From assembly GCA_905221605.1 (NCBI GenBank), contig CAJNDS010000458.1:298001-362000 (forward strand): a stretch of DNA of 64,000 nt, in the 5' to 3' direction. The position numbers were made by a program, and so were the translations under genes. The number at the start of each line of letters is the position of its first letter. The stretch's first letter is position 1. This DNA comes from Symbiodinium natans. Its lineage: Eukaryota; Sar; Dinophyceae; Suessiales; Symbiodiniaceae. Positions 14,080 to 44,916 of this stretch are shown in pieces. Below the pieces are notes generated by a model. That model made no database searches and was not told the origin of the DNA. It saw only the letters and a list, made by a program, of their open reading frames with translations.

Positions 14080-14463
14080 TATATGTTGCCTCATCTCTCT
14101 CTCTATTTCTATGTATATCCATTATATGTATGTATGTAGGCATCTATGTCTTGCTTTTTTCGGCTCAAGGCTTCCGGCCATTCAGGGGTCCGGGGGCCTT
14201 GGTTTAGGGTTTCGTGAGTTGGTGTTTCGTAAAAATTGAGGCTTTCGGAGCCTCAGCCCTCAGCTATCGCAGGGAAAGCCCTCCGCAACTTTCAGACTTT
14301 AGAGCTTCCCTGTGCACCCTGGGAGCCTTTGAGGTGCCGCGAGCGATTCGGGAGCCCTAATCCCTTGCAGCCCTACTTCCTAAGCCCTAAACCCTAAACC
14401 CTAAACCCTAAACCCTAAACCCTTGCAACCTTCAACCCTAAACCCCCTATCAGCCTCCCCGGG
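13781..14463. repeat. Perfect TTTAGGG array, AT repeat and C array
   Basis: A near-perfect array of about 17 TTTAGGG units at 13784-13905, a TA microsatellite at 14035-14086, and CCCTAAA repeats at 14380-14445 directly before exon 1. A promoter is not identifiable. An acceptor-like CTATCAG at 14450 leaves open that exon 1 extends upstream of its ATG. Confidence 0.6.
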
Positions 14464-14517
14464 ATGGCGGTCTCCATCCACGTGTCGCTGATGAGTGGCC
14501 AGACGGCCACGATCAAG
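14464..14517 (+). CDS. Exon 1 of RCC1-like gene
   Basis: Reads MAVSIHVSLMSGQTATIK, the first strands of a ubiquitin-like fold. The donor is AAG|GCACCT. C-type repeats lie on both sides of this exon, an exception to the usual layout. Confidence 0.75.
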
Positions 14518-16186
14518 GCACCTAAACCCGAAACCTCGAAACCCTTAACCCGAAACCCTAAACAAGTGTCGCTCAGGATTTAGGGTGTTGGGTTTGGCTT
14601 TTCTCGACTACTCGACTGCACGCGTTCCTGCGCGTTGGGTTTAGTGAATTTAGGCTGTGGAGTTGGATTCAGCCCGAAACCCTAGAAACCTTAAACCCCG
14701 AAACGTTACAAGCCCCAAATCCTATGAACCTTGAACCCTATAAAGCCTAAACCCGAAACCCCAAGAAGGGAGCATGCATTAGAACAACCCCCACGTACGC
14801 TGTTTGCGGTCCAGAGTCTGCGCAGGGGGTCTCCGATGCACACACAATGAGATGCCCTGAAACCCTAAACCCCAAATAAACCCTTAAACCCTAAATCCTA
14901 AACGTTTGGTGTTCAGGTTTGGCGCTGCGTTGGGGTTTATAGGGTTTAGGGTTCCCAACCCCCCCCCCCCCCCCCCCGCAGGGCTTTGATGGCTTAAGGC
15001 CCCCCCCACCCCCCCCCCCCCCCCCCCACACCGCCTTTAGGCGATGACACGCGCTTTCCAGGGCTTCAGCACCTGAACCCGAATAGCTGGAGCCCTTCTA
15101 GGATGCCCAGTAGTACACGTTTTCTCTTTTTGGTTTAGGTGTCCTTAAACCCCTTTCAGCAAATAAGGGCCCCTTTCGATCCTAGGTTACTGGGCAACCT
15201 CGCCTTGCCCCGAAAACCCCAAACCCCAAACCCCTAAACCCCAAACCCTCAACCCTAAACTCTGAACCCTGAACTCTAAACCCTAAACCCTAAACCCCAA
15301 TCTCAACCCGAAGCCCTAAACCCCAGCCTTAACGCTCCACAGCCCACAGCTTCTGAACCCGGATCCCTGAGTCGCAAGCCCTAAGCCTTAGCCCTACGAA
15401 CCCTATTGCAAAGCCTACATTCCTCATGAACCATAACCTCCCACCCCCCCCCCCCAAAAAAAAAGACGAACTCTATACATATATATATATATATATATGT
15501 AATATCTGTATTTTTCATCGTTTATAATTATTGATTTATTCAATTGTTTCTTTCGCACAGAATGAAATTCGCTGACGAAATTCGCGTAAGACCCATAAAC
15601 TGAGAACCCGAAGCTCCGCATAAGCCCTAAAAGCCTTGGCCCCTAAAGCCTAACCTTAAAACCTGTACACACTCGCCCCTAGCAACCAAATCATGGTCCT
15701 CAACCTTAACTTCCCTAAGTTCTCAAAGGGTTTAGGGTTTAGGGTTAGGTTTAGGGTTTAGGGTTTGAAGCCCTTGCGTTAATTCTACCCTTAAAACCGA
15801 ACACTAAGCCCAAGCGCCCCTAAAAACCCTAAACCTAGACCCCAAAGCCCCATCCTCTTAGTAGATGAATGAGTACACTTTTTACTTTTGGGCTACTAGA
15901 ACCCTATGGCACTGAAAGTGTTCATTGTTTGGGGCGTATGAACTCAGGAAGTAAGAAACCCAAAAACCCAAAACCCCAAACCCTAAAACCCCAAACCCTC
16001 AACCCCGAACCCTAAACCCTAAACCTAAACCCTAACCCTACCTATCCCTAAAAGCTGGCAGAGGCATCCCCGAAGGACAGCGTCAGCCAGCTGCGACTCG
16101 CGGCGCAGCGAGAACTCAAGGCGGGGCGGTTTCGGGTTTGGGGTTTGGGGTTTAGGGTTTAGGGTGTGGGGTTTAGGGTTTAGGGT

Positions 16187-16225
<39 letters not shown>

Positions 16226-19200
16226 GGTTTAGGGTTTAGGGTTTAGGGTTTAGGGTTTGAAGCTGGAGCTGGTGGACGGTTTCATGCAGACAGCCCCGTC
16301 CTGCTTCCGGATCCAATCTGGCTTACTCCTAGGTAGGATAAGGGGCACCCTTAAAAGGGAACCCCTTCTTAACCCTCTTCTGGCTCTCTTAAACAGGGAC
16401 CTTATTCAGAGGGTCTATGTTCCCAAGGGTCCCCTTAATCCTATCCCCTACTTACTGGTCTGTGTGTGCACATTGAACTTTGTTCAGGACCAGGCAAAGA
16501 AGAGAGGGATTAGTGCGCAAAGTATCAATCGCCGGTTATGTCTTAAAGGGCTAAGCCTATAGACACCTAACCCGTTGCGAGCGCATGGCAGCCTTGAAAG
16601 AAGAAGATGCCTTGCCCCTAAACCTGCAGCCATCACCATAAACCGTTGCAATACGCCCGACCCCGCCCAAAACTGAACCCTAAACCCTAAACCCTAAACC
16701 CTAAACCTCATTTCATAAAACAATCGTTGGAAAGGTGGGCATCTCCGAGCTCCTGACCTGCAACGGCCGCACGCTGCGCGGCACCGGTGTCTTGGAGGCG
16801 GACCTTGCGGGTTGCGCAAGCTTCCGCCTTTAGGGTTTCAGAGCTTAGGGTTTAGGGTTTAGGGTTTCAGAGTTTAGGGTTTAGGGTTTCAGAGTTTAGG
16901 GCTTAGGGTTTCAGAGTTTAGGGCTTAGGGTTTCAGAGTTTAGGGCTTAGGGTTTCAGAGTTTAGGGTTTAGGGTTTCAGAGTTTAGGGCTTAGGGTTTC
17001 AGAGTTTAGGGCTTAGGGTTTCAGAGTTTAGGGCATAGGGTTTCAGAGTTTAGCGTTTAGGGTTTGTGGTTTCAGAGTTTAGGGTTTAGGGTTTGTGGTG
17101 TCAGAGTTTAGGGTTTGGGGTTTGTTAGGGTGTATTGGCATTGGGGTTTCGGGTTTAGGTTTTATGGATGATGCGTTTAGATTCTTTAGGTGGCTTAGAT
17201 CACTTGGAAGCTGCATGTTCGTGAATTCTTGAGTTCTGGACCCTTAAACCCTAAACCCTCAACCCAAAACCTCAACCCTAAACCCTAAACCCTCAACCCT
17301 AAACCCTCAACCCTCAACCCTAAACCCTAAACCCTAAACCCTAACCCCCAAACCCTAAACCCTAAACCCTAAACCCTAAACCCGAAACCCTCTCTTGCGG
17401 AGGGCTTGGGGGGTATCTGCCATGGGCTCGGAGCACCAAAAGCCCATCGTGCCTAGGGAGTCCTTGACTCGTGTCTGTCTGGGGGTTCAGGGTTTAGGAT
17501 TTAGGGTTTAGGGTTTAGGGTTTAGGATTTAGGGTTTAGGATTTAGGGTTTAGGATTTAGGGTTTGGGGTTTAGGGTTCAGGGTTTGGGGCTCAGGGTTG
17601 AGGGAGCCCAGCAGGCTTCATCCTACCATAAACCCCAAACCCTAAACCCCAAGCCCCAGACCCTAAACTCCAAACCCTAAACCCCAAACCCTAAACCTCG
17701 AAACTCTACACCCTAAACCCGAAACCAATCAAAGTCCTGAGCAGTCCGATGCTAAGCTTTTCACCCAAAGCCGTCTGGGCTGGCTTAGAAGCTTACGTAG
17801 GAGTTTGGGGCTTACAAGCTTCGTTAGGGTTTAGAAGTTTTCGGTTTGGAGTCTAGAAGCTTGGGGTTTAGAGGTTTAGGGCTTTGAAGTTTAGGATTTT
17901 TCAAGTTAAGGGCTTAGCTGTTTAGAGGCTCATGGCTTGGAAGTTTAGAAGTTTGGGGTTTTCAGCTTGCACGTTAAGAAGTTTAGAGTTTCAGAAGTTC
18001 ATGGCTTGCAAGTTTACAAGTTTAGGCTTCTAGGGTTCGGAAGTTTAGAAGTTTAGGGCTTAGGGTTTAGGCTGTACTCCTGAGCTTCTCGCCTACACGA
18101 GATCCTGAGCAGGATGAAGTGGCCGATGGCGTCCACTTGGCTGCACTTTTGGCGGGGCTGCGGGGATTTCCGCGAAAGCGGATTCGAAGAAGCTTCCAAT
18201 AAGGGCCATTTGTTGAACTAGTCTGGAATTCGGTGCTAAACCTTGAAACCCTATAACCCCCTAACCCGTAAGCCCAAACCCCTAAACCCTAAACCCTACC
18301 CCTAAACCCTACTTAGTATGGCTCGAAGGCCATGGACGTGGGCCGTGTAACAACACATTTTGCAGCGTAGAAGATGTAGGAATTGTTGGTTTCGGGGCCG
18401 AAGAAGCCTAAACCCTTAACCCGGATGAAGCTCCAAATCCGGACCCCTCTGCAGCCCGACAAATAGGAGGAATGTTCAGGGTTTAGGGCTTAGAGTTTAG
18501 GGTTTAAGGTTTAGGGTTTAGGGCTTTTTTGGCTTAAGGTTCAGGAGGCCTTAGAATTGATCGGCCCCCCAGCGGAAGTCGCTTGTGCCAGCTACTACAC
18601 TTTGATACCTTACAACCCTGCCAAAATCCTGTAGACCCTAAACCCTAAACCCTAAAACCTTTTTGGGGTGCCCTACTTGGAGGTTCATGGTACTTATTAG
18701 CCAATTCTAACTGTACTTATAACCCACTTATAAGCCCCTTAAGTGCCCTGATATGGTAAAGTACAGTTATAATTGGTTAAGAAGTACCATGAACCTCCAA
18801 GAATAGGGGCCGCCTTGTATATAGCAAGGACCCCAATAGGGGCCGCCTTACATATAACAAGGGCCCCAAAAGGGGCCATGTTTCAGAGAAGTTTGAAGTG
18901 ACCATATCCTTAAAAACCTGTAACCATGCAAACCCAGAACCTGACCCCCTGGGGAATTCTGAATCCACAACGGCAGCGAGGATCACGGACGTCTCCTAAG
19001 CTCCTAAACCCCAACCCGTCACGCTTGCTGGTGGAGAGATCGGCAGCCTCCAGAAACCCTCAACCCTATAGACCACCCGAGCACCGAATCCCAAACACCA
19101 CCTGCACCCAGCAGGCCTTCAAGCACCCCTTAACAAGTGTAGCAGAGCACCTACTCTCAACCCTAAGCTCTAGACCCTAAACCCTGAAACACTAAACGTT

Positions 19201-22200
19201 CCGGAAGTGAGTGCTTTCGGGTTTAGACTTGTAGGGCTTTTCCGTTTTCGGGTTTAGGGTACGTATGTGCTTTGTTCAACCTACAACAAACCCTGCAAGA
19301 CCCTTGCAAGCGCTGAGCCTCACCAGACTGAGGAATCCTTGACAGCCCTCGTGCGACAGGCCATATGATTCTCTAAATGATGGTCCCTTTTTGGGTACAG
19401 TGACATCGCTGGATAAGAAACCTCTAAGTTTTGGCGAGGGTACCCTCGGTTTCTTAATTATGAAGCCCACTCAATTTCCGGAATTATAGCCTCCACACTT
19501 TTGAGGGCACCCTCGGTTTCTTAACGAATTTCTTAATGGGATTCGAACTGGCAACGTGTCAATTAGTAAGGCGACGCCTTATCCATTAGGCTGATCGCTC
19601 AAGTTCTTTATTGGGGGCTCTCCTCAAATCGGCAGGGTTTAGGGTTTTGGGGCTTGTTGTGTAGAGCACAGGTTCAGTTCTCTAAATTCTGGCCCCTTTG
19701 GGGTACCCTTAACAAGAGGGGCCGCCTTGCAAGAAGGACTGCAGAAGGACGATATTTTAGAGAAGTGACCTTTTAGGGGTGAGAGCTCGGGTTTCAGCCG
19801 CTTTCAGTTTGCTTTTTGTATTCGGGCTTCAGGGATTCTCGGTTTGGGGAGGAGTAGGGGATTGGGGTGTGGGGCTTTGGGTTTAGGGTTAAGTTTTTGA
19901 GAGGAAGTCGTAGGGAATTGGGATACAGCCTACACCATAAAGTCACCGCCCCCCAAACCTTAACCCTCCCTGCATGAGATCAATTTGCTCCCTACCACCG
20001 TTCCCATGCAATTATGAGGTTTCTATAAGAGGCCTAAGCCCCTGCAGCCGAGTATAAGGGTCTAGTGAGTTATACCACAAGAGCTCTAATTAATTATTAA
20101 GGAACCCTTGTTATATGGACCTTTTGAGGGGTTCCTCTGAAGCCCCTCTTTGACCCACCCTGAGAGGTGCAGCTCACGCAGAGCCGCCGCGCCGCCTCCT
20201 TCGCCTTGATCCGTGGCGACGGCGTCTTGGTGGAGATGTCGGTTTAGGGGCCGCAGGTTTAGGATCTGGGATTTTGTAAGGGTTTTGGGGCTGAATTCGG
20301 TTGTTTAGAGTTTGGGGGGTTTAGGGTCCATGATAGGGTTTGGGGTTGATAGGGTTGTTTTTTTTGGTTCAGGCTGTCGCGTCCATGGACTTGGCAAAAT
20401 GGTCTGCCTGTTGTGGTGGGGTGCCACAGCCCCTTTACTATACCTCTTTATAACTTTACGAGCTCCACGCTCCGAACCATAACTTTCCCCTGCAAGCCCC
20501 CCCAAACCCTAAGCCTCACAAGAAGCCCAACATCCCAAACCCTTCAAACCCCAAGCAGACCCCAAAAGCCCAAAACTCCAAAACCCTGCACCCCCAGCAC
20601 CCAAAGCTCGAAACCCTAAAGGACAAAGCCGAAGCCCCAAAGCCCCAAAACCCTGACAAGCCTTGTACCTGTTGAAGAACCTTTAGATTGCAGGGTTCTT
20701 AAGGGAGGCAAGTGGGGTATGTACTCCTAGGTTCCCGAATGCTCCCTACTACTCCCTAAGCCTCCGTAAGTTTCCCTAAGGAGGTTTCCTATGTACCTAC
20801 CCCCATGAACCCCCCTTCCTTAAGAACCCTAGACCTTCCTTCCTTCGTGTGCTTGCAGCGGACGCTGGTGCTGGCCAAAAATGAGCCTGTGGCTCACAGC
20901 CTTGTATGTGAGAGGTGAAACAAACCAACCGAACCAACAACCGAGAAACAAGACCCAAAGCCAAACGGAGACCCCAGCCCCGAAACCAAAAACCCCGCAA
21001 AGGCAGAGGCAACCCCAGAACGAACCCGAGGGAAGCCCGAAACCGAAAAACCAACAAGCCCAAACCAACCACAGAAGCCCAGCGCAGCTGGGGACGACGG
21101 CCAAGGCCGCGCGAGGCATTAACGGAACTCGCAGAAGCCACCAACTTGTGCAGCAGCCAGAGTGAGCAACGAAGTGCCGAGTAGCCGCCCTTGACAGCAC
21201 AAGGCAAAGACTGGCAACACTACGGGGCACTCCGATCAGAAGTCGAACACGACGCATGCACATCTACACGGCCAACTCAAAGTGACTTTGACGTGCCTTC
21301 ACCTGTCCAGTGCCTCCAGGCAGAGGTGGATGAGAGGACACCACCCCGGCGAGAAAAGGGAGTGAGCAGCACGTTGAACCGATGGCCAGTTAGACAAATT
21401 CAATCTGCCCCAGTGCTCTAGTGATGAAACTTCACCAAACAAGCACTGAAGGGAAAAAGCAGCCGCCAGAAGCGGCCACAGCCCGGCAAAGAAGGTACCA
21501 CCAGGATCCCAGACCAGGACCAGTGGGAAGTGTGCCCAAATGCCGTCATCCACCTGTCTATGCCAGCAGATCTTTGACATCGCGAGCACATGCCAGTACC
21601 ACCAACCATGCCTCCGGCCACAAGGAATACCACCACAGGTGCAGTAAGAAGGCCCAAGGTCCTCGCATCCATGCACAAGCATGCCACTGTGCCCCTGGTG
21701 GCATGCTCCGCCCAAAACCCATACCAAAAGGCAGGCGAGCGCCCTGACTGTCGCATGGGAGAAACAAGGGGGATCCACGCTGGGGTCTGGCCATGGCTAA
21801 AGTCGCGGGCACAGCGCAGCCGAAACCCGGGGCTCATAGCTTGAAGCCAAGATGCCTCGAACCCTAGACCCTATAAGCCCTAAACCCTAAACCCTCCCTT
21901 AAGAACCTCTAGTGAGATCAACCCCCCAGTTCTCAGTAGCTTTAACCTTCCCCGCTGCTGAATTCTCGAACCCTCGCTATAGGTCTTCGGGCTGTGCAGG
22001 TGTTCCTAAACTCAACCCTTCAACCCTTCAAGCCTAGATCCTTGTAGGGTTTAGCCCCTAAGCCTTGCCCTGAACCGTAGAGCCCTAAACCCCTTTGGGT
22101 TTAGGGCTTAGGAACCCTAAGCCTTGAAGCCCTAAACTCTAGAGCCCCAACACCCAAGAGCCCTAGATACTATATAGAGCCCAGAGTAGGCCCTCATTCC

Positions 22201-37200: not shown

Positions 37201-40200
37201 GATGAAGCGTTTAGGGTTTTGGGACAAATGATGTGTTTTTTGGGTTAATTAAGTACTGTACCCCCTAAACCCCTTTTTGTTCCCCTAAAGATGGTTCTTG
37301 AATCCTCGGCCCTCCCCCTGGAAGATGCACCAAAAAGACAAATCGAAGGCGGCTATAGCTGGGGGTCACGTAGAAGACCAGAATAGAACCGCTAGATAGA
37401 ACAAACCAGAGCATCAGACAGAACGCTTGCAACACACAGCTTCCGCCCCAAGCTCGCCATGCCAGGGGGAATCTAAACGAATCTAAACCCCAACCCCTTC
37501 AGACCTCAATCACATTGAGCGTACGGACCCTTAGCCCTAAACCCTATGTCCTAACCCCAATCTCCACTCGGCAACCGATCTCCTTGCAGGAGTTTGGTGG
37601 GGACCTCACGATTGCTGCGAAGAGGCAGCACCCTCCTTTGAACCCTGAACCCTGAACCCCTAAACCCCACAACCCCTGAAGCCCGACAGTCGTGAAATGC
37701 CAGGCATTCGGGTTGAGGGCCAGGCGTTTTAAGGTTTAGGGGTTTTAAGGTTCAGCGTTCAAGGACAGGCTCTGTCTTCTCTAACTTGACCCCACCCACC
37801 CTTCCATGAGGGAGCGCGTAAGAACAGGGAAGCCCCACCCCACCTGCCTCCCAGCAAGGAAGGGGGGCAACAATGGTGGAGAACTGGAAGCCCTGCTGGA
37901 AAGTTTACGGGTAGAGAACAAAAAGCCCCGAGGCTCCCTAACATCCAGATAGAAGTCGGGTTAGATTGCAGCTTGTAAGAGATGTCATAGTACAGGTACG
38001 TGCTTGGTGTATAGCTCCCTTGTAAGTGCACTTTGTACCTAGCTATGGGCCTTGAAGTATGGGATGGTCCCTGTTTGGGGTATACTTCGCCGCATTCAAG
38101 CTGGACTTAGAGACCTTCTAAGCCCTGTAAGGCGTACCTTACTGGGGAAGCCTACTATTTGGGGACTATATTCGGGGCCTCTTATACTCGGAAACCTCCT
38201 ATTTGACCCGAGAACCCTAAACCCTAAACCCTAAACCCAAGAAGGCTCACCTCAGTTCGCCGCCTGGTCGCCTCCAACGGCGCTTTTGCCGCGCTGCTGA
38301 CGTGCCGAGGCCGGGCTGCTTGCGGTTGAGGTTTAGGGTTTAGGGTTTAGGGTTTGGGGTTTAGGGTTTAGGGTTTAGGGTTTGGGGCTTTAGGGGTTAG
38401 GGGTTCGGGGTTGGGGGTTGAGGGGTATAAGGCCGTTGGCAGTATTTACAGATTTTTAGACCCCAATGTAGGTTTTATTTACATGATTACTTGGAGGTTG
38501 ATGGGTCCATTTGTAGTAACTATTATGGAATTCGGTACCCCAAAAAAACCATACTAAGTAGGATTTTAGTTTTGGTGTACGCCTATTTCCATAATCGTAC
38601 TACAAAAGGACCCTCTAGGAATGGCAACCCTGGAAACATCAACCCATCAAGAGGTTAGGGTTTGGGGTTGAGGGTTCTTCGTGGGGTTTAGGGTTTCGGA
38701 ATTTGTAAAGGGCTTAAAGGTTTTGGGCTTGGTCGTGAAGCTACGTAGGTGTATAGTTGGCGGAGAACGAAGACCCTCGGACCACAGAGTCCCCCGGATT
38801 TCAAACCGTTGAATTCCAATGCCCAACCCTCACCTCCACGCCCTGCACCCCAAACTCTCCACTGCGTTCGGCGGCAACCCCTAAACACTCCACCCAAACC
38901 CTAAGCACCTAAGCCCTTAGAATCCCAATAGCCCTAGACCCTGAGTCTCAGCCCACGTCCTTGCAAATGAGAAGCCCTTGAACTTGAACCCCCTTTACGC
39001 CCTTAGGGACCTAAATCCCTAAAGAATATATGTCTCCCAAGTAGTGGGAAGGAGGCACCTCGTATCCCCCTCCCATACACACCCTTCAAGGGACGCAAGG
39101 GATAAACTGGGGGGGTTGGCGAAGTAGGGGACCCGAATATAGACCCCCAAATGTTAGGATTCCCTTAGAATCAGGACCCCAATCAGCTATCCTTAATTTC
39201 GGAAACCCCCATATATGGTACCGAGTTTCCTCAGTCCCTCAGTCCCTCAACCCTAAACCCTAAACCCTAAGCCCTAAACCCTAAACCCTAAACCCTAAAC
39301 CCTAAACCCTAAACCCTAAACCCTAGACCCTAGACCCTAGACCCTAAGTCAAGGCTTGCAGCCCTCGCAGGTGTCACGACTTGGGGGGATCCTCAGTGGG
39401 GCGGAGACTGCTCAGCTGCAGCGGCTGACCTGGAGGCCTTGGGCTGGAGGGGCTTCGGAGTTGGGGTTTAGGGTTTAGGGTTTCCGGTTTAGGGTATAGG
39501 GTTTTTGGGTTTTGGGTTTAGGATTTAGGGTATAGGGTTTTTTGGGGGGTTTAGGGTTCAGCTTATAGGGTTTTTGGGTTTAGGGTTTAGGGTTAGGATT
39601 TTCTAGGGGCCAAAATGTGGGGGCGGGGGGGGGGGGGTTGAGGATTTAGGGATACAGCTAGGGTACAGGGAGCAGTGCCCTCAAAACGCCAGCGAAAGTA
39701 CTTGCAGGCCTTCCTCCATGGCTCCCTGATCCCTAAACCCTAAACCCTAAACCCTAAACCCTAAACCCATAAACCCTAAACCCTAAACCCTGCTTACGGT
39801 TCTTCAGGGGACCCACGAGCTGCCCCAACGCTCAGGAGGTAGAGTCCATCGCCGCCTCAGACGCAGCCTTTGCCGCGTTGCGTACGGATGGCACAGCCGC
39901 TGGGCGGCAAGGGTTTATAGGGTTTAGGGTTCAGGCTTTCGGAATTAGGGTTTAGGGTTCACTGCCTTGGTTGGTTCTGTCGCCCCCTAAACCCTGTCAA
40001 CTTTGATACCTCAAGTCCTGAACCCTAGTAGCCCTTGTAGTAAATCCTGCATAGTTCGTCTAAGCCGACTTCTACACGCTGAACTTGTTAAAACCCAACA
40101 TGCTGTGAAAGCAGCGTCTCGAGGAGGGTTAAGAAGGTGAGGGTTAGGGTTTCTGAGTTTAGGGTTTGAGGCGTATGGTTTAGGGTTTTGACATGATAAA

Positions 40201-43200
40201 AGGGTTTCGGGCTCTGGGTTTTGAACGTAAGGTTTAGGGCTTAGGGCTTTGAGTTGAGGGTTTAGGGTTTTGACTGCAGGGTTGAGGATCAAAGCCCTAC
40301 TTAACACCCTAAACCCTAAACCCTAAACCCTAAACCCCTTAAGCCGGGTGCTTCCCTCGCTTCCCTCGCTTCCCTCCAAGGTCGTGACTTGGGGCCACCG
40401 TGGCCGGGGGGGTGACTGCGGATCCCTGAGGCAGCACGGCGAGAACGCTCAAAGTTGTCGGTCTGGCAGGAGCCCTAAACCCTAAACCCTAAACCCTAAA
40501 CCCTAAACCCTAAACCCTAAACCCTAAACCCTAAACCCTAAACCCTAAACCCTAAACCCTAAACCCTAAACCCTAAACCCTAAACCCACCCTTTTTTTGG
40601 TTGTAAGAGGACCATGTTTAGGAATATTTTTGAGAGGGTCTTAAGGGCCATCTTTGTAACCCTAAGCCGTAGAAAAATGGAAGAGCTTGTTGTGTAGGGA
40701 GCCTTTCGATAGAGGCCCCACATATATCCCGAACTTATCGAAGCAACCGACACCAGCAACACAAGTCTACAAATTCGATTATAATCTACGAGCCCTAAGC
40801 TCCAAGGACAATCCCCAAAATAAGCTCCCTAAACCCAAAAACATGCCGAAACCGCAGCTCCCAATAACCCTACACCCTAACCCTAAACCCTAAACCCTAA
40901 ACCCTAAACCCTAAACCCTAAACCCTAAACCCTAAACCCTAAACCCTAAACCCTAAACCCTAAACCCTAAACCCTAAACCCTAAGCCTGTAGTAAAGGTC
41001 CCAGCTCCACGACGTGCGGCAGATCGTCGGCTCGAGCAAAGCTTTCGCCGCGCTCCGCGGGGATGGCGAGGCGGTTTAGGGTTAGGGGTTTAGGGTTTAG
41101 GGTTTAGGGTTTAGGGTTTGGGGTTTCGGGTTTAGGGTTTAGGGTTTAGGGTTTGGTGTTTAGGGTTTAGGGTTTGGGGTTTGGGGTTTAGGGTTTGGGG
41201 TTTGGGGTTTAGGGTTTAGGGTTTCGGGTTTAGGGTTTAGGGTTAGGGGTTTAGGGTTTAGGGTTTCGGGTTTAGGGTTTAGGGTTTAGGGCTTGGGGTT
41301 TAGGGTTTGGGGTTTAGGGTTTAGGGTTTAGGGCTTAGGGCTTAGGGCTTAGGGTTTTTAGGACTTCGGGTTTTTTTAGGGTTTAGGGCTTGTTGGGGTT
41401 GAGGTTTGTTAGGGTTTAGGTATGAGGGTTTAGCGTTTAGGCTTGCTTAGGGTTTGGGTTTGGTTGTTGGGTTTAGAGCTCTTTAGGTTTAGGGTTTTGG
41501 GTTTTGGGTTCAGGGTTTTAGGGTGTGGGCTTGCCCCCGGAACAAGGTATTCTGCAGGTTTTTGGGTTTTGGGTTTTTTTAGGGTTTAGGGTTTGTTGGT
41601 GTCTTGGGTCAGGGCTTAGGGTTTAGGGCTTATACTAGGGGGGTCCGAAACCCCTCCCCCTTAAGAGCTTTGAGGGGGCTTTGGCGGGGTGAGATACCGC
41701 CCTGAACCGTTGCCCTATACATGGCAATTAGAAATGTGCAGGGATATAAGGTACCTAATTCCGTCTTCCCTACCAGGAAGCAGTAAGTTTAGGTTTTAGG
41801 TTGTTTGGAGGGAGCTACCAGTAGAGGTTTAGTTTCAACAGCGGTATTTGACGGCTGTGCAGTTGACAGGCTGGTTTGGGTCAGGTTGTTGTATAGCTGT
41901 GGAGTGTTGTCATTCACCAACCCTGGACTTTGCGAAGATGAGAGCTTCGGGTTTAGGGTTTCGGGTTTAGGCTTTAGGGTTAAGGGTTTAGAGGGCTCCC
42001 CGGCGAGGTGGTCTGCTGGGGCCGTATCGACACCGAGCTAGACGCGGCAATCCAGTGCCGGGACGTCCAGGAATACCTTCATGATGCCACTCGTCCTCTA
42101 GGCTCACTCTTGGGGTTTAGGGTTGAGGGGTTGAGGAGTTAAGGGGTTGAGGGGTTGAGGAGTTGAGGGGTTGAGGGGTTGACGGGTTGAGGGGTTGCGG
42201 GGTTGAGGGGTTGAGGGGTTGAGGGGTTGACGGGTTGACGGGTTGACGGGTTGAGGGGTTGAGGGGTTGAGGGGTTGAGGGGTTGAGGGGTTGAGGGGTT
42301 GAGGGGTTGAGGGTTGAGGGTTGAGGGTTGAGGGGAGTGGAGCCGACTAGCTTCCGGTCGCAGGATCCCGAAACGTAATTTTAAAGCAGCAAGCTGTGAA
42401 AGACAAGGGCTCCGAGCTAGGATCTCCCTTGCTCTTTTCAGGCGCATTCCTTAGAAACGTCCGCCCCAAGGGTCTCTAGTTTTTGGTTGGGAAGCCCTGA
42501 ACCCTAAACCTTAAACCCTAGACCCTAAACCCTAGACCCTGCATGGAGCTCTTAGTCCTCTAGGTCCAGCAACTGGCCGCCTCGAATCGGGCCTTTGCCG
42601 CCATTTGCGGCGACGGAAGTCTGGCGACTCTTCGGCTTACGGGGATGAAAGGAGCCTCGAAGTTGGGTTGGGGGCCCAGTTTGGGGTTTAGGGTTTAGGG
42701 TTTAGGGTTTAGGGTTTAGGGTTTAGGGTTTAGAAGTCGGATTTAGGGTGTAGAGGGTTTAGAGAGTTTTGTGAGGGTTTTGTGAGGGTTTTGTGAGAGT
42801 TTTGTGAGGGGCTTTCGAAGGTTTTTGGGAGGGATTTTGAGGGTTTTGCAAAAACCCTAAACCCGAAACCCTAAACCCCAAAGCCCTATGAGCCCGTTGA
42901 AGGGGGCTCTCAACTAGAGGTGACGTGGGGAGCTCCTGAGTATGGAGGCGACAGCAGCAAGGCCCGAGGTTTAGGGTTTAGGGTTGAGGGTTTAGGGTTT
43001 AGGGCTTGGCTGCTTTCAAAGGGCTGGGGAAGAGTTGCCTGGTGTTGTAAAGGTTTTGAGGGTTTTGAGGAGGCTTAGTAGATTTCGGGGGATTGGGGGT
43101 TCAGGGTTCCCGTACTTTTGTATCGCTGGCGATGAGGGACCGACAACCTGACTTACAGTGCTGAGCACGATTTGGAATTTCATATCTCTACTTATGGCGG

Positions 43201-44241
43201 GGCGGGGGGGGGGGGGGGGTTGCAGGGCTGTATCTCGTTGCGTTGCCGTTGGGGTTTACGAAAATAGAGCACCCCTAAAATAGACAGACCACCATGTAGA
43301 ATTCGCTGAGAAAAAGGGACCCCCAAGAAGGTACTCCCCCCCCCCATTTCGGAAACCACCAACCGGTCCCTAAACTCTAAACTGTAAACCGTAAACCGTA
43401 AGGCCGAAGGCTGGCTCAAGGATGGGGTTTACTGGGAAACCTCTTAGGGGTACTTCCTTTGAAACCCTTCGGGGTCCGAATTTGATTCCCTTGACACCTG
43501 GAAGAAAAAAGAGCTGAGCTTCAACTTAGTGTCTGAGCGAGTACATCCCACACTTTTTTGGGATTACTATAACCCCCTATAGAACTGAAAGTGTACACTT
43601 TTGGGGCTTATGAACTCAGCAACTAAGTCCATGAGATGCCACCGTTGGCCGCAGCCATGTTTTGATGTCAGTTCGTCGGGTTTCCAGCCCCTTCTAATGA
43701 TCATTTCCCGGAGCGCTCTTCGCGCTATTCCTATCTTCAGCCCTATAAACCCCCAAAAACCTACAACCCTAATTCCTAAAGACGCAAAAGCCCCGAAAGC
43801 CCCAGGAACCCGAAGAACGCTCAGCACCTCCCCTAAAATCCCTAAGCCCCTCTACCTAGGTCCAGTCCACTCATCCAAGGGTAGTTTCATGGCCTCCCTT
43901 AAAGCCTGAAAGGATTCTGAAGTATGGGCCCTTGGGTTTTAAAGGGTATAGAAGGTGTATATAAGTTGTTCCCTGTTAGGGCCCCATACCCATGTGACTA
44001 CCCTAAGACTTAAGACCCTTAACCCTAAACCCTATAATCCCTATAAACCCTAAGCCCTCTTCGGCCACAAGAAGGATTCTCCCCTGTGGGGGGGGGGGAC
44101 GGGGGGCTAACCCTAAACCCTAAACCCTAAACCCTAAACCCTAAACCCGGTGGGGGGGTGGGGGGGCCCGAAGAGCTCAGTCAGGTGCGGGATCAGCTTC
44201 GTGAAGTTCACGGCTTCCAGGGCTCCACGCATCTTGGTGCT
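14464..44241 (+). CDS. 26-exon gene: ubiquitin-like domain plus RCC1/HERC-like repeats
   Basis: Twenty-six short exons on the + strand join into one open frame of about 440 codons. Exons 1-4 resemble a ubiquitin-like domain (SLMSGQTATIK, SQLRLAAQREL, LLTCNGRTL, ADGVHLAAL). Exons 5-26 give about nine ~50-residue repeats of the pattern AFAAxxxDGxVVTWG..GGDSSAVQ..VxQIxAS, the RCC1-like blades that automatic annotation of dinoflagellate genomes often labels HERC-type ubiquitin ligases. No HECT domain is visible, so a ligase function is not supported; RCC1-type blades usually form a beta-propeller for protein binding. Frame is kept across all junctions that could be placed. Donors are GC in 20 of 23, GT in 2, GA in 1; acceptors are AG, nearly always followed by G; two junctions (17/18, 21/22) stay unresolved. 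Intron phase is 0 (17) or 1 (6), never 2. The start is chosen as the ATG heading the ubiquitin-like stretch. The 3' end is unknown; coding may continue beyond 44.9 kb. Confidence 0.85.
14518..16063 (+). other. Intron 1 (1546 nt)
   Basis: GC donor. C-type repeats at 14521-14565, then weak G-type. It contains two long C tracts (14956-14978, 15001-15027), C-run/A-run plus TA repeat at 15440-15500, family I element at about 15866-15953, and CCCTAAA repeats at the 3' end. Confidence 0.7.
16064..16120 (+). CDS. Exon 2 of RCC1-like gene
   Basis: Reads ASPKDSVSQLRLAAQRELK, continuing the ubiquitin-like domain. Acceptor GAG|GCATCC; donor AAG|GCGGGG. Confidence 0.8.
16121..16734 (+). other. Intron 2 (614 nt), telomeric ends
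   Basis: Starts with TTTGGGG/TTTAGGG/TTGAGGG repeats (16130-16258) and ends with CCCTAAA (16675-16710). A family G short element lies at 16335-16443. GC donor. Confidence 0.75.
16335..16443. mobile_element. Short inverted-repeat element, family G
   Basis: TAGGATAAGGGGCACCCTTA and its imperfect complement AAGGGTCCCCTTAATCCTA, with ACAGGGACCTTATTCAGAGG inside. Copies at 54821-54932 (same orientation) and 26112-26205 (inverted, shorter). Confidence 0.8.
16735..16810 (+). CDS. Exon 3 of RCC1-like gene
   Basis: Reads VGISELLTCNGRTLRGTG then VLEADLA, the middle of the ubiquitin-like domain. Acceptor AAAG|GTGGGC; donor probably GCGG|GTTGCG. Confidence 0.8.
16811..18113 (+). other. Intron 3 (1303 nt)
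   Basis: Opens with a 22-bp periodic array (TTTCAGAGTTTAGGGCTTAG) at about 16840-17120. C arrays 17235-17390, G array 17480-17610, C array 17620-17720, then G-type text with many TTTAGAAG variants to the 3' end, where C-type repeats would be expected. Confidence 0.65.
18114..18151 (+). CDS. Exon 4 of RCC1-like gene
   Basis: Reads DEVADGVHLAALL (first codon split with exon 3), the end of the ubiquitin-like domain. Acceptor GAGCAGG; donor TTG|GCGGGG. Confidence 0.65.
18676..18801. mobile_element. Short inverted-repeat element, family A copy 2
   Basis: Same termini as the copy at 12494-12639 (CTTGGAGGTTCATGGTACTT and its complement), 126 bp, non-coding. Lies inside intron 4. Confidence 0.8.
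19540..19610 (-). other. tRNA-like sequence, possible SINE head
   Basis: On the minus strand an A-box-like GCCTAATGGATAAGGC and a B-box-like GTTCGAATC are spaced as in tRNAs of the arginine type. The anticodon and T stems do not pair properly, so this is a tRNA pseudogene or the promoter of a tRNA-derived SINE rather than a working tRNA. Confidence 0.5.
20167..20221 (+). CDS. Exon 5 of RCC1-like gene
   Basis: Reads VQLTQSRRAASFALIRGD, the start of the RCC1-like repeats. Donor GACG|GCGTCTTGG. The first intron bases still translate as GVLVE, a decayed copy of the next exon's GSVVT. Confidence 0.85.
20222..22344 (+). other. Intron 5 (2123 nt), telomeric ends
   Basis: G-type text at the 5' end and a CCCCAAA/CCCTAAA array (22255-22325) at the 3' end. 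Between them about 1 kb of low-repeat DNA at 20830-21840 has overlapping open frames on both strands and no recognisable domain. Confidence 0.7.
20830..21840. other. Low-repeat 1-kb insert of unknown nature
   Basis: The + strand is CA-rich and nearly free of telomere-like repeats. Open frames of 94-159 codons occur on both strands, and minus-strand ones look hydrophobic and Trp-rich, typical of antisense reading of CA-rich DNA. It may be a diverged transposon; I cannot assign it. Confidence 0.3.
22345..22407 (+). CDS. Exon 6 of RCC1-like gene
   Basis: Reads SVVTWGPGRFGGDSSAVQ, the classic core of the repeat. Acceptor CCCCAG|GCTCGG; donor CTCG|GCGGCT. Confidence 0.9.
22408..23085 (+). other. 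Intron 6 (678 nt), telomeric ends
   Basis: TTTAGGG/TTTGGGG repeats at 22436-22615 and CCCTAAA/CCCCAAA repeats at 22855-23045. Little else inside: a near-minimal example of the inverted telomeric layout. Confidence 0.85.
23086..23144 (+). CDS. Exon 7 of RCC1-like gene
   Basis: Reads DVRKVVASTLAFAALRGDG and a final E codon. The first codon is split with exon 6. Acceptor TTCAAG; donor GAG|GCCGAG. Confidence 0.9.
23213..25202. mobile_element. Element with 634-bp terminal inverted repeats
   Basis: 23213-23846 and 24569-25202 are reverse complements with no net indel: outer ends sum to 48415 (23213+25202) and inner ends to the same value (23846+24569). I see only a few mismatches, e.g. one in the AAGARAGAGG-type stretch near 23415. 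Each arm carries a His-repeat-like ATGATGGTG run and a GGGTGGGG run. The spacer holds about nine copies of a palindromic motif. It sits in TTTAGGG repeats on both sides. No transposase is recognisable. The near-identity of the arms suggests recent insertion or gene conversion. Confidence 0.85.
23847..24568 (+). repeat. Spacer with repeated GGATTTGTATCCG motif
   Basis: The motif CGGATTTGTATCCGGCCCCG, palindromic at its core and followed by GTGGATGA, occurs near 23861, 23951, 24011, 24215, 24321, 24388, 24446 (with TTATA) and 24508, with a diverged copy at 24115 and another inside the left arm near 23752. A second motif, GGCACGACTGTCATGTGCAA, occurs near 23802, 23907 and 24066. Confidence 0.8.
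25871..25921 (+). CDS. Exon 8 of RCC1-like gene
   Basis: Reads VVAWGHKDFGGVCDAVQ. Acceptor GGTAG|GTGG; donor CAG|GCGCCC. Joins exon 7 as GDGE-VVAWG. Confidence 0.9.
25971..26063. mobile_element. Short inverted-repeat element, family H
   Basis: GGTAGCCCAGTGGTACCCTT at the left, GGGTTACTGGGTAC at the right. A second copy lies at 37078-37184 in intron 16. Confidence 0.75.
26112..26205. mobile_element. Short inverted-repeat element, family G, inverted copy
   Basis: GGGGATAGGATTAGGGGGAC and TTATCCTTTATCCTAATC at the ends, with GACCCTCTGAATAAGG inside. Confidence 0.7.
26405..26449 (+). CDS. Exon 9 of RCC1-like gene
   Basis: Reads DQLRNVEQIAATRDE. Acceptor GCCCAG|GATCAG; donor GAA|GCCTGC. Confidence 0.9.
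26450..26978 (+). other. Intron 9 (529 nt)
   Basis: The first 200 nt stay open in the exon frame (decayed coding look) and hold a G run at 26573-26592. CCCTAAA repeats at 26897-26960 fill the 3' end. Only weak G-type repeats at 26625. Confidence 0.75.
26979..27021 (+). CDS. Exon 10 of RCC1-like gene
   Basis: Reads AFAAVRADGRVVTWG. Acceptor GCCGAG|GCCTTC; donor TGGG|GCAGCT. The intron then reads a TAG stop, so splicing is needed for the frame to continue. Confidence 0.9.
27148..27245. repeat. CACGGGCC tandem array 1
   Basis: About a dozen units of an 8-9-mer (ACGGGCCC), self-complementary within GGGCCC. A second array at 29385-29455 includes CACGGGCT variants. The two arrays bracket the 27.7-29.3 kb tandem repeat. 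Confidence 0.9.
27715..29345. repeat. Five-copy tandem array, units about 160-470 bp
   Basis: The marker TTCCAT-TACACGC-ATG-TGCC-AAGCTTGTAA-type text (TGACATGTTCCATCTACACG) recurs near 27867, 28337, 28661, 28987 and 29149, giving spacings of about 470, 324, 326 and 162 bp. Units share a TTGCAGTGCCACATGCCAG block and AGGAGTAGAGTTGAGGCTGT. Non-coding. Confidence 0.85.
29385..29455. repeat. CACGGGCC tandem array 2
   Basis: Units ACGGGCTC then ACGGGCCC, ending in GCCCGCCCGCCC. Same unit as the array at 27148-27245. Confidence 0.9.
29787..29839 (+). CDS. Exon 11 of RCC1-like gene
   Basis: Reads NPDSGGDSSAVAESLRS. Joins exon 10 as TWG-NPDSGGD. Acceptor AAAAG|GCAACC; donor TCG|GCTCCT. Confidence 0.9.
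29935..32590. mobile_element. Fold-back element, arms about 1.25 kb
   Basis: The left arm (about 29935-31188) and right arm (31312-32590) are inverted copies around a 120-bp loop. Inner parts are nearly identical; outer parts (beyond about 30190 and 32330) diverge and carry indels, although both end in GGTAAATTTCGCG and its complement. The arms encode no recognisable protein. A near-palindrome GTTCAACAC-GTGTTGAAC lies near each inner end. Confidence 0.8.
30296..30710. repeat. Three sub-repeats of about 155 bp inside the fold-back arm
   Basis: Starts near 30299, 30456 and 30610, each with GTGAAA..TTAAGTTCAACA, then GTTG, then AACTTTTCGGG.. CATGCGAAAT (third copy diverged). The mirrored set lies at about 31790-32225. 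Confidence 0.7.
32948..32974 (+). CDS. Exon 12 of RCC1-like gene (27-nt microexon)
   Basis: Reads VTQISAASE, the QIxAS segment of the repeat. Acceptor TTCCAG|GTGACA; donor GAG|GCCTGA. The flanking exons require it for a complete repeat. Confidence 0.8.
32975..33409 (+). other. Intron 12 (435 nt)
   Basis: Weak G-type text at the 5' side and a CCCTAAA array (33275-33355) near the 3' end. AGGCCT occurs at both the donor and acceptor junctions. Confidence 0.75.
33410..33442 (+). CDS. Exon 13 of RCC1-like gene (33 nt)
   Basis: Reads AFAAITAGGRV, joining exon 12 as ASE-AFAA. Acceptor CTCCAG|GCCTTC; donor GTT|GCCGCC. Confidence 0.85.
33586..34443. repeat. 14-copy minisatellite with telomere-like core
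   Basis: The unit is about 52-55 bp: TTCGTCGGCAAATGG, T6-8, CCACCCGGGGG, then GGGCCCTAAACCCTGACCCC. Copies start near 33586, 33641, 33696, 33751, 33804, 33858, 34035, 34090, 34142, 34194, 34248, 34300, 34353 and 34410. After copy 6 a 120-bp block interrupts; relatives of that block recur at about 34505 and 34730. A 241-codon minus-strand frame runs through it only because the unit is repetitive. Confidence 0.9.
35107..35305. repeat. Long CCCTAAA array
   Basis: About 27 nearly perfect units with a few CCCCTAA and CCCTAACCC variants. One of the longest arrays in the window, inside intron 13. Confidence 0.95.
35419..35529. mobile_element. Short inverted-repeat element, family B
   Basis: Ends CCAGAAGGTCCATTTGTAGT and its imperfect complement ACTACAAATGGAACCTCTGG; 111 bp, non-coding. 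Relatives at 9029-9145, 38502-38619 and 57889-57990, and a half copy at 60501-60541. Confidence 0.8.
35710..35757 (+). CDS. Exon 14 of RCC1-like gene
   Basis: Reads VTWGRAEWGGNSSAVQ. Acceptor TTCCAG|GTCACT; donor CAG|GACTTC, the only GA donor I placed. The intron stays open for a few codons more. Confidence 0.9.
35758..36098 (+). other. Intron 14 (341 nt), telomeric ends
   Basis: TTTAGGG/CTTAGGG at 35774-35815 and CCCTAAA/CCCTAAG at 36013-36083. Compact and clean inverted layout. Confidence 0.85.
36099..36129 (+). CDS. Exon 15 of RCC1-like gene (31 nt)
   Basis: Reads EHLSDVVAIAG across the junction with exon 16. Acceptor GCCAG|GAGCAT; donor GCAG|GCCTTT. It fills the QLxxVxQIxA segment of the repeat. 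Confidence 0.85.
36130..36917 (+). other. Intron 15 (788 nt)
   Basis: No G array at the very 5' end; C-type 36310-36350, G-type 36470-36515, and a long CCCTAAA array 36787-36907 at the 3' end. Confidence 0.8.
36918..36979 (+). CDS. Exon 16 of RCC1-like gene
   Basis: Reads SSRAFAALRGDGRIVAWGDP. Acceptor TGCCAG|GCTCCA; donor CCA|GCAGCT. Confidence 0.9.
36980..37589 (+). other. Intron 16 (610 nt), telomeric ends
   Basis: TTTAGGG array 37016-37060, family H element 37078-37184, and weak CCCTAAACCC text (37530-37560) before the acceptor. AGCAGCTTGG after the donor resembles AGGAGTTTGG at the acceptor. Confidence 0.8.
37078..37184. mobile_element. Short inverted-repeat element, family H
   Basis: GGTAGCCCAGTGGTACCCTT at the left, GGTTACAGGGCTAC at the right; the middle shares AAAGTAGCCAACC with the copy at 25971. 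Confidence 0.75.
37590..37626 (+). CDS. Exon 17 of RCC1-like gene
   Basis: Reads EFGGDLTIAAKR. Acceptor TTGCAG|GAGTTT. The donor is unresolved: the next exon needs phase 1 and no GC or GT falls there. Confidence 0.75.
37627..38255 (+). other. Intron 17 (about 630 nt)
   Basis: Begins with C-type CCCTGAACCC repeats, has a short G-type patch at 37730-37755 and unique DNA 37770-38200, and ends with CCCTAAA at 38215-38240. Confidence 0.65.
38256..38309 (+). CDS. Exon 18 of RCC1-like gene
   Basis: Reads RRLVASNGAFAALLTCRG. Acceptor CCTCAG|TTCGCC; donor CGAG|GCCGGG. Confidence 0.85.
38310..39370 (+). other. Intron 18 (1061 nt), telomeric ends
   Basis: TTTAGGG/TTTGGGG array 38332-38400, family B element 38502-38619, unique DNA, and a CCCTAAA/CCCTAGA array 39247-39345 at the 3' end. 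Confidence 0.8.
38502..38619. mobile_element. Short inverted-repeat element, family B
   Basis: GGGTCCATTTGTAGTAACTA at the left and ACTACAAAAGGACCCTCTAG at the right, with AATTCGGTACCCC and CCATACTAAGTAGG inside. Lies in intron 18. The preceding TTGGAGGTTGATGG recalls family A ends. Confidence 0.8.
39371..39435 (+). CDS. Exon 19 of RCC1-like gene
   Basis: Reads VTTWGDPQWGGDCSAA and then AADLE. Acceptor TCGCAG|GTGTCA; donor GAG|GCCTTG. Confidence 0.9.
39436..39835 (+). other. Intron 19 (400 nt), telomeric ends
   Basis: TTTAGGG and TATAGGG variants 39464-39600, a G run at 39625-39638, and CCCTAAA 39730-39790. Compact inverted layout. Confidence 0.85.
39836..39895 (+). CDS. Exon 20 of RCC1-like gene
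   Basis: Reads EVESIAASDAAFAALRTDGT. Acceptor GCTCAG|GAGGTA; donor ACA|GCCGCT. Confidence 0.9.
39896..40380 (+). other. Intron 20 (485 nt), telomeric ends
   Basis: TTTATAGGG/TTTAGGG at 39910-39960, more G-type text 40140-40280, and CCCTAAA 40305-40340; the acceptor follows TTCCCTCGC repeats. Confidence 0.85.
40381..40431 (+). CDS. Exon 21 of RCC1-like gene
   Basis: Reads VVTWGHRGRGGDCGSLR. Acceptor TCCAAG|GTCGTG. The donor lies near AGGCAG at 40429-40434; its exact base is unresolved. Confidence 0.85.
40432..41004 (+). other. Intron 21 (about 570 nt), C arrays at both ends
   Basis: CCCTAAA arrays at 40472-40588 and 40876-40985 flank 290 nt of AT-richer unique DNA. There is no G array: a direct rather than inverted arrangement. 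Confidence 0.8.
41005..41070 (+). CDS. Exon 22 of RCC1-like gene
   Basis: Reads LHDVRQIVGSSKAFAALR and then GDGE. Acceptor probably TCCCAG|CTCCAC; donor GAG|GCGGTT. Confidence 0.85.
41071..42007 (+). other. Intron 22 (937 nt), G arrays throughout
   Basis: TTTAGGG/TTTGGGG repeats from the donor to about 41640, unique DNA, then TTTCGGG/TTTAGGG again at 41945-41995 just before the acceptor. No C array. Confidence 0.8.
42008..42064 (+). CDS. Exon 23 of RCC1-like gene
   Basis: Reads VVCWGRIDTELDAAIQCRD; the GGDSS core is replaced by DTELDAA, so this blade is diverged. Acceptor GGCGAG|GTGGTC; donor GAC|GTCCAG (GT). Confidence 0.85.
42065..42563 (+). other. Intron 23 (499 nt), telomeric ends plus TTGAGGGG array
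   Basis: G-type text from 42113, then a 10-mer array (GGGGTTGAGG) at 42121-42335, and CCCTAAA/CCCTAGA 42495-42540. GTCCAG-AA occurs at both the donor (42065) and the downstream exon start (42564). Confidence 0.85.
42121..42335. repeat. TTGAGGGG-type tandem array
   Basis: About 20 units of GGGGTTGAGG with a few GACGGGTT variants. Its complement reads as Pro/Asn/Ser/Thr repeats in a minus-strand frame, which is not a gene. Confidence 0.9.
42564..42623 (+). CDS. Exon 24 of RCC1-like gene
   Basis: Reads VQQLAASNRAFAAICGDG and then SL. Acceptor CTCTAG|GTCCAG; donor CTG|GCGACT. Confidence 0.9.
42624..42919 (+). other. Intron 24 (296 nt), shortest telomeric intron
   Basis: TTTAGGG x7 at 42685-42732, TTTTGTGAGGG repeats 42765-42850, and CCCTAAACCC x3 at 42854-42880. 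It contains little besides the inverted telomeric halves. GGCGAC after the donor matches GGTGAC at the acceptor. Confidence 0.9.
42920..42961 (+). CDS. Exon 25 of RCC1-like gene
   Basis: Reads VTWGAPEYGGDSSK. Acceptor CTAGAG|GTGACG; donor AAG|GCCCGA. Confidence 0.9.
42962..44184 (+). other. Intron 25 (1223 nt), telomeric ends
   Basis: G array 42969-43003, a G run 43203-43220, family I element about 43530-43625, family F element 43910-43998, and CCCTAAA 44108-44150 followed by a G-rich stretch before the acceptor. Confidence 0.8.
43910..43998. repeat. Dispersed repeat, family F
   Basis: TTCTGAAGTATGGGCCCTTG then AGGGTATAGAAGGTGTATAT, ending near GGGCCCCATA. Relatives near 7848, 9445 and 59337. 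Ends are weakly inverted. Confidence 0.7.
44185..44241 (+). CDS. Exon 26 of RCC1-like gene
   Basis: Reads VRDQLREVHGFQG, the QLxxVxxI segment. Acceptor AGTCAG|GTGCGG. The donor is unclear (candidates at 44221 and 44233); TTTAGGG repeats start at 44248. Confidence 0.75.
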
Positions 44242-44916
44242 GTTAGAGTTTAGGGTTTAGGGTTTAGGGTTTAGGGTTTAGGGTTTAGGGTTTAGGTTTG
44301 GGGTTTAGGGTTTAGGGTTAGAGCTTAGTTTATATTTCTTTCTTGGTGGGGGTTAGGGTTACAAGTCGTTTATTATGTATTATTATTATTCTTATTATTA
44401 TTTTCATTATTATTATTAGATTCCAATTATTTTGTTATTGTTGTTGTTGTTGTGTTTTTTTTTTTGGGGGGGGGGGGGGGGCGGGGTGTGGGGGGGGGGG
44501 GGGGTGGGGGGGGGGGGGCTGTGTTATTGGGGTTTAGGATTTTGTTCTTTTGGGGGTGGGGGGTTAGGGTTACTAGGGTTCTGGTTGTTTTAGGGGGGGT
44601 CAAGGAAGGTCGGGGGATTTGGGGCATTTGGGGTTTGGCATTTTGGACATCCATGCCCTTGATGGCTCATGGGAGTAGGGTTTAGGGTTTAGGGTTCAGT
44701 GTCAGGGTCCCTATAATCAGCCCTAAATCGTAGACTCTAAGCCCGGAAAGCCCAAGACACCCTAAACCCTAAACGCCCAACATCGGGTTATTGAACAAAA
44801 AGCAAACAACCTCTCATTCAACCCTGCAAAGCCCTAACTTCTCATAAACCCTAAACCCTAAACCCTAAACCCTAAACCCTATAATCCCTAAGCCAATTCA
44901 TGCTCTCTGAGCCCAG
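44242..44916. repeat. Putative intron after exon 26
   Basis: TTTAGGG array 44248-44325, TTATTA-rich text 44370-44425, a T-run/G-run tract 44455-44520, G-type text, and CCCTAAA 44845-44890 before the next acceptor. Inverted layout again. Confidence 0.7.

Follow-up and report, generated by a model that had tools for sequence, protein, structure and literature searches.

Strand-polar telomere-type arrays around the predicted exons of an RCC1-like gene in Symbiodinium natans

Telomere-type repeats switch strand at the predicted exons of an RCC1-repeat gene in Symbiodinium natans, a free-living alga: the nearest array is of the CCCTAAA type (C) upstream of 21 of the 24 exons and of the TTTAGGG type (G), the repeat that normally caps chromosome ends, downstream of 20 of 24. 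This total of 41 of 48 sides bears out an earlier note on this DNA, which had described the switch; 2000 randomised placements, confined to array-free parts of the same interval, averaged 21.3 (SD 2.6) with a maximum of 30, and 1180 circular shifts reached at most 33. Genome-wide, by a proxy count, arrays bracket exon-sized islands in C-then-G order. Array strand would help to predict exon location across a 759-Mb genome, a simple gene-finding aid in dinoflagellates, and would provide a handle on the recognition and origin of odd dinoflagellate introns with GC and GA donors. It also raises the question of how a genome full of chromosome-end repeats escapes treatment as one full of chromosome ends.

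The RCC1-like gene and its arrays

The window, that is, the whole 64,000-nucleotide stretch that was analysed (contig C458:298001-362000), holds a gene modelled on the + strand at 14464..44220 with 24 exons and 23 introns, all of them predicted from reading frame, homology and AG acceptors. Its start reads as ubiquitin-like (Ubl-like; MAVSIHVSLM) and is followed by RCC1-type repeats, and the joined translation, assembled by hand, matched PF13540 (E 2.5e-26). Among 629 related proteins, the best 120 were 34-51% identical, many of them from Symbiodiniaceae where named. A tblastn search of these 120 homologues against the whole window gave 20 merged matches (E <= 0.01), of which 7 were dropped (4 on the - strand and 3 others without an RCC1 motif). 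The 13 that were kept all carry an RCC1 motif and follow one another in order along the + strand. The remaining 11 of the 24 exons were placed by reading frame, motif and splice signals, exons 11 and 14 by eye. The RCC1-like identity given in the earlier note stands, while its 26 exons and 25 introns are revised to 24 and 23; a further small exon may lie in 16820-20160, and the gene may continue beyond 44241. An annotated S. natans relative, P0117, was tried as a guide to exon borders; it aligned as two pieces that together span almost its whole length, and no RNA-backed borders were gained. The features are as follows, with the nearest arrays upstream (up) and downstream (down) and the basis of each exon last.

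14352..14449, +, CCCTAAA-type array directly upstream of exon 1, with no known cis donor partner; presumably a trans-splice acceptor side
14464..14517, +, exon 1 (ATG); nearest down C 14519-14566 (exception); frame/motif/splice
16064..16120, +, exon 2; up C 15955-16040, down G 16126-16262; frame/motif/splice
16735..16810, +, exon 3; up C 16669-16711, down G 16825-17169; frame/motif/splice
20167..20238, +, exon 4; up C 19927-19968 (199 bp off), down G 20256-20350; frame/motif/splice
22350..22401, +, exon 5; up C 22224-22330, down G 22421-22615; tblastn homology
23076..23144, +, exon 6; up C 22819-23067, down G 23152-23216; tblastn homology
25871..25921, +, exon 7; up typed array G 25727-25746 (exception; a degenerate C-rich repeat, 25753-25832, lies nearer), down G 25939-25973; tblastn homology
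26384..26449, +, exon 8; both sides without an array within 150 bp; frame/motif/splice
26979..27021, +, exon 9; up C 26896-26969, down G 27036-27107; tblastn homology
29787..29838, +, exon 10; up C 29663-29765, down G 29863-29936; tblastn homology
32948..32974, +, exon 11 (VTQISAASE); up C 32759-32885, down G 33065-33108; by eye, no homology match
33410..33442, +, exon 12; up C 33269-33360, down C 33493-33584 (exception); frame/motif/splice
35710..35757, +, exon 13; up C 35529-35694, down G 35767-35821; tblastn homology
36099..36126, +, exon 14; up C 36007-36089, nearest down C at 174 bp (exception); by eye
36914..36985, +, exon 15; up C 36780-36912, down G 37012-37064; tblastn homology
38240..38310, +, exon 16; up C 38208-38243, down G 38324-38424; frame/motif/splice
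39371..39440, +, exon 17; up C 39241-39350, down G 39457-39598; tblastn homology
39820..39895, +, exon 18; up C 39723-39794, down G 39913-39964; tblastn homology
40381..40434, +, exon 19; up C 40302-40341, down C 40469-40590 (exception); tblastn homology
40996..41070, +, exon 20; up C 40825-40989, down G 41070-41634; tblastn homology
42008..42064, +, exon 21; up G 41941-41994 (exception), down G 42108-42335; frame/motif/splice
42564..42623, +, exon 22; up C 42491-42543, down G 42677-42767; tblastn homology
42920..42962, +, exon 23; up C 42848-42888, down G 42965-43010; tblastn homology
44179..44220, +, exon 24 (last modelled); up C 44106-44151, down G 44241-44362; frame/motif/splice

Arrays were called with up to 3 mismatches in 14 allowed, and on this definition the G strand covers 14.2% and the C strand 15.3% of the window, together about 30%. 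When only the 13 homology exons were considered (the ends of three were trimmed by hand), 24 of 26 sides were polar, and random placements averaged 11.4 with a maximum of 18, none of 5000 reaching the observed value. In the first and last 150 bp of the introns, G exceeded C on the 5' side in 18 of 23 and C exceeded G on the 3' side in 19, with both in 14; the earlier counts of 18, 21 and 15 among 25 introns were thus matched on the 5' side and came out somewhat lower for the other two. The exceptions carry C at the 5' side (introns 1, 12 and 19) or G at the 3' side (introns 18 and 20), and introns 3, 7, 8 and 14 have one end without an array. Between 25 and 100 bp upstream of exons, array coverage was 0.60-0.70 for C and 0.02-0.04 for G, and over the same distances downstream it was 0.57-0.67 for G and 0.07-0.09 for C; the two profiles are approximately mirror images and return to near background about 200 bp from exons.

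The RCC1 protein repeats derive from internal duplication, and homologous sites within them are interrupted by an intron in some units and uninterrupted in others. At 13 junction pairs, where both the junctions and the donor types were placed by hand, the donors were 11 GC, 1 GA and 1 GT. A Ubl/RCC1-like S. natans protein gave 249 matches in the genome on many contigs, several of which may share one frame; most of those listed fall in open frames some 500 aa long, and a single contig often holds more than one (C1247, C2101 and C1742). Many genomic relatives of the split gene therefore seem to be intronless, and these open-frame copies may be retrocopies.

Other elements were seen in the introns and elsewhere in the window. 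Giant fold-back palindromes occupy intron 6 (23219-25196; arms 100% over 335 bp and 99.5% over 203 bp) and intron 10 (29942-32581; arms 87% over 900 bp and 95% over 304 bp), and intron 12 (33584-34430) carries tandem 53-54 bp repeats with a CCCTAAACCCTGACCC core behind a G-run. An interspersed element with TAGCCCAGTGGTACCCTTTACCC, SINE-like by eye, occurs at 25967 (intron 7), at 37078 (intron 15) and in locus L041, and a piece at 5263-5382 may be related to it. Two palindromic MITE-like elements (18671-18808 and 12491-12643) are 73-77% related to each other. Rfam models gave no match in the whole window at gathering scores.

Array order across the genome and its limits

Because introns within a single gene may have a common ancestry, and so may not represent 23 independent cases, whole-genome counts are the better test. 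The assembly searched comprises 759,417,921 bases in 2543 contigs, in which (TTTAGGG)x3 occurs 1,185,204 times forward and 1,184,385 times reverse, against 41 and 33 for the backwards-read control. TTTAGGG is the dinoflagellate telomere repeat in the literature excerpted here (PMC11508785, PMC7023079, PMC11453091); the arrays of the window are interstitial, being interspersed at non-terminal contig positions (298001-362000). The pattern counted was two array units, a gap and two units of the other strand, with C-gap-G compared with G-gap-C; the strand of the gene is irrelevant, because CCCTAAA-exon-TTTAGGG is its own reverse complement. These counts are proxies, independent of annotated exons, and include a given array pair several times over, in different registers, so that they differ from exon numbers and it is the comparison of orders at an equal gap that is informative. 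C-gap-G outnumbered G-gap-C by 194,914 to 60,787 at gaps of 100-130 (ratio 3.2) and by 406,911 to 138,427 at 160-190 (2.9), compared with 24,005 to 19,214 at 60-90 (1.25:1) and 143,516 to 134,098 at 300-330 (1.07:1). Array strand that is independent of splice-site position genome-wide, the outcome that the earlier note had set against its own claim, is not what this proxy gave, the excess being about 3:1 at exon-sized gaps.

Smaller samples were also examined. Stretches of 4 kb were sampled by contig number, and 13 of the 20 chosen were obtained, 7 contigs being too short. In these, C-to-G pairs numbered 28 and 27 at gaps of 140-170 and 180-210, against 3 and 6 G-to-C pairs; grouped by place, the figures were 8 and 7 against 2 and 4. 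Islands of 60-220 bp in these stretches and in the window outside the gene had a higher G+C content when flanked C-to-G (0.551, n=37) than G-to-C (0.519, n=22; p 0.0026), while the rise in coding score of the C-to-G islands was non-significant (p 0.12 against G-to-C, 0.08 against all other classes). Windows chosen by coding score, a weak approach, were polar in 32 of 46 cases at scores of 6-10 and not polar at 2-6 (44 of 100) or below 2 (76 of 153), and none of the 10 windows scoring at least 10 lay near an array. Viral contigs scanned for the C-gap-G pattern contained none.

Arrays are patchy in this assembly. Seven of the 13 sampled stretches (L031, L032, L034, L036, L037, L038 and L042) have at most one short array, and the first array place listed on contig C1 is at 235 kb; with array-poor beside array-rich stretches in one assembly, a mixed origin of some contigs is possible. 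Kinesin genes were used as a further set; one kinesin frame, on contig C1951, is 100% identical to KRP95 of S. natans over 91% of the query. In this set 45 of 98 matches were tested, including a few with internal stops, and matches outside these and the open-frame loci described below were left out by hand (weak, stop-broken or overlapping fetched loci). No array was found in the fetched flank of 24 of the 45 exon matches, which presumably splice without arrays. Where a side had an array within 300 bp, 17 of 24 were polar (left 6 of 8, right 11 of 16; p 0.064); outside this count, one further exon (L117) was polar on both sides and another (L118) had a wrong-strand array at 20 bp. One kinesin gene (L029; C303:44698-47970), with five exon matches tens to a few hundred bp apart, is array-free. 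The Cpn60/CCT family, with 6 matches only, was left out of the polarity test. The polarity rule is thus statistical and not universal, and it is strong in array-rich genes such as the RCC1-like gene.

Possible roles and origins of the arrays

The reading favoured here, although tentatively, is that the arrays are primary-sequence elements beside splice sites and not two arms of one hairpin. At the 13 hand-placed junction pairs, 12 donors and 11 acceptors lie within 200 nt of an array; the median distance is 17 nt from the donor to the start of TTTAGGG and 23 nt from the end of CCCTAAA to the acceptor. The C array, which is AG-free and rich in C/T runs and A, would occupy the position expected of a branch site and pyrimidine tract, and the G array would supply GGG triplets or runs beside donors, while the opposite strand near an acceptor would present TTTAG/GG decoy acceptors every 7 nt. 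Arrays would arrive through an insertion or expansion process, and splice-site selection would then yield the strand flip at each exon. This reading is preferred because the polarity sits in a tight range of 25-150 bp, because of the homology-exon test and the genome ratios of 3.2 and 2.9 against 1.25 and 1.07, and because the two arms occur independently within introns. In human LCAT intron 4, GGG and CCC runs are described as cooperating intronic enhancers, a stem-loop between them also having been considered (excerpts of PMC2481429).

A bearing on whether exons or splice sites set the strand comes from 16 kinesin loci with long open frames, picked by hand from 30 viewed; where an array lay within 600 bp, the nearest one upstream was C in 6 and G in 1, and the nearest one downstream C in 5 and G in 2. 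These loci possibly contain introns, and in several of them the match is to an incomplete domain. G arrays thus do not clearly mark gene ends without a known donor, a weak observation that would be expected if acceptors and donors, and not exons as such, set the strand. Against splice-side elements stand the mirror-image upstream and downstream profiles, which two separate signals would not require, and the G array 14 bp from the acceptor of intron 20. CTAAAC is a poor fit to the usual branch-site consensus. Furthermore, an array density near exons of 0.6-0.7, about four times the window mean of 0.14-0.15, implies that purifying selection alone is insufficient and that the arrays must either have a positive role or have been inserted in a targeted way.

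An unlikely alternative is that array pairing in the transcript brings splice sites together or, in a variant added here, that arrays pair across each exon and help to define or circularise it. The arrays lie next to splice sites and are complementary to each other, the mirror-symmetric coverage suits pairing, and 8-20 nt inverted repeats of Amoebophrya introners have been proposed to join exon ends (excerpts of PMC7789003). Folding the two ends of an intron by themselves can give long helices, as in introns 2 and 16 with 112 inter-arm pairs. However, when 17 of the 23 introns were folded with 250 bp flanks (6 were too long and left out), the mean pairing of the 5' G arms (n=14) was highest, at 0.40, with the stretch preceding the same exon, against 0.21 for the intron middle and 0.14 for the 3' end of their own intron, and the 3' C arms (n=15) paired at 0.40 downstream of the next exon and at 0.18 with the 5' end of their own intron. 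End-to-end pairing did occur in these folds in introns 5 and 11 and, to some extent, in 17 and 22. The two arms are also not positively associated (14 introns with both, 4 with G only, 5 with C only and none with neither), and in the sampled DNA C-to-G pairs exceed G-to-C pairs at short distances, so that the partner across the exon is usually nearer. The proposal of the earlier note that the G and C halves of one intron pair and join its splice sites was therefore not supported; the folds speak against end-to-end pairing as the rule, with the qualification that protein binding and co-transcriptional timing could alter folding.

Where the arrays came from is a separate matter. It is doubtful, although arguable, that they arose as introners, inserted elements with telomere-array terminal inverted repeats and short target duplications at splice sites. 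The inverted orientation at intron ends (G 5' and C 3' in 14 of 23 introns) and the interruption of homologous protein-repeat sites in some units and not others agree with such an origin, and introners of Symbiodinium microadriaticum have 4-bp duplications and terminal inverted repeats (excerpts of PMC9860276). Direct repeats across the 13 hand-placed junctions averaged 3.92 nt, against 2.81 nt for mismatched pairs (p 0.0002; p 0.145 at first placement), but the junctions were placed partly with the direct repeat in view. Furthermore, the spacers between splice site and array have no consensus by eye, and a blastn search for copies of one introner among the 23 array-masked introns of the gene found none, the introns sharing only short stretches and no family sequence.

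Less likely still is an origin by telomerase repair, in which breaks in genes were extended (TTTAGGG on the left end, CCCTAAA on the right) and then joined, either directly or through filler, so that introns were created or rebuilt. The polarity of the enzyme predicts exactly G-then-C inside introns, the introns lack shared filler, and telomere repeats are known at repaired breaks in mammals (PMC2246262 and PMC7215372). Under a looser array definition, cores of at most 12 bp, resembling joined ends, were found in 5 of 18 sampled G-to-C places on contig C1 (18 of 20 were compared) and in 1 of 20 C-to-G places; the comparison carries little weight, as the gap ranges of the two samples differ. 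On the other side, arrays mostly begin 5-50 nt from splice sites (range 0-178), the direct repeats lie at the splice sites themselves, and a search of about 265 kb for exact two-unit pairs separated by 0-30 found none, whichever strand came first. The broader conjecture that telomerase or telomere-copied DNA made intron ends in S. natans, breaks being capped and rejoined so that very many exons are still bracketed by repeats now read by the splicing machinery as boundary marks, is very doubtful. Exons as telomere-capped fragments joined end to end were considered and set aside, as interiors of hundreds of bp lie between most arms in this gene and there are no exact abutting pairs in these 265 kb, although short G-to-C cores exist. 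Finally, that the polarity is chance or an artefact of a repeat-rich region is hardly credible, because the occupation of some 30% of the window by arrays is outweighed by the randomisations and by whole-genome counts with the opposite order as control.

Comparison with known systems

Roy et al. (2023) reportedly treated dinoflagellate introners. Among the matches listed from the open-access literature, judged by title and the start of the abstract, none described telomere arrays at intron ends; the main text of the S. natans genome paper (PMC8045281) has 0 matches for telomer, introner or inverted repeat, and PMC11114475 has 0 for telomer.

The introners of Amoebophrya, as excerpted (PMC7789003), resemble the present introns in coming from a dinoflagellate and in having an inverted repeat at each end; their non-GT donors and short direct repeats over the splice junctions may be shared as well, to judge from the hand-placed junctions. 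They differ in that their repeats of 8-20 nt define families, whereas the S. natans arms are telomere-type, extend over tens to hundreds of bp and enclose interiors without family sequence. The DNA-transposon-like introners, in the excerpted text (PMC9860276), include those of S. microadriaticum, a member of the same genus, and share inverted repeats and perhaps duplications at intron ends, but no copy family was found within the S. natans gene, and arrays also lie outside modelled introns. G- and C-rich intronic splicing enhancers are comparable in their intronic runs of GGG and CCC, which accompany weak pyrimidine tracts; those in the excerpted account (PMC2481429) are short motifs of human introns, neither telomeric arrays nor polar pairs at two ends. 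Interstitial telomeric sequences likewise consist of telomere-type repeats inside chromosomes, while here the strand of the repeats is tied to exon position and their abundance is extreme.
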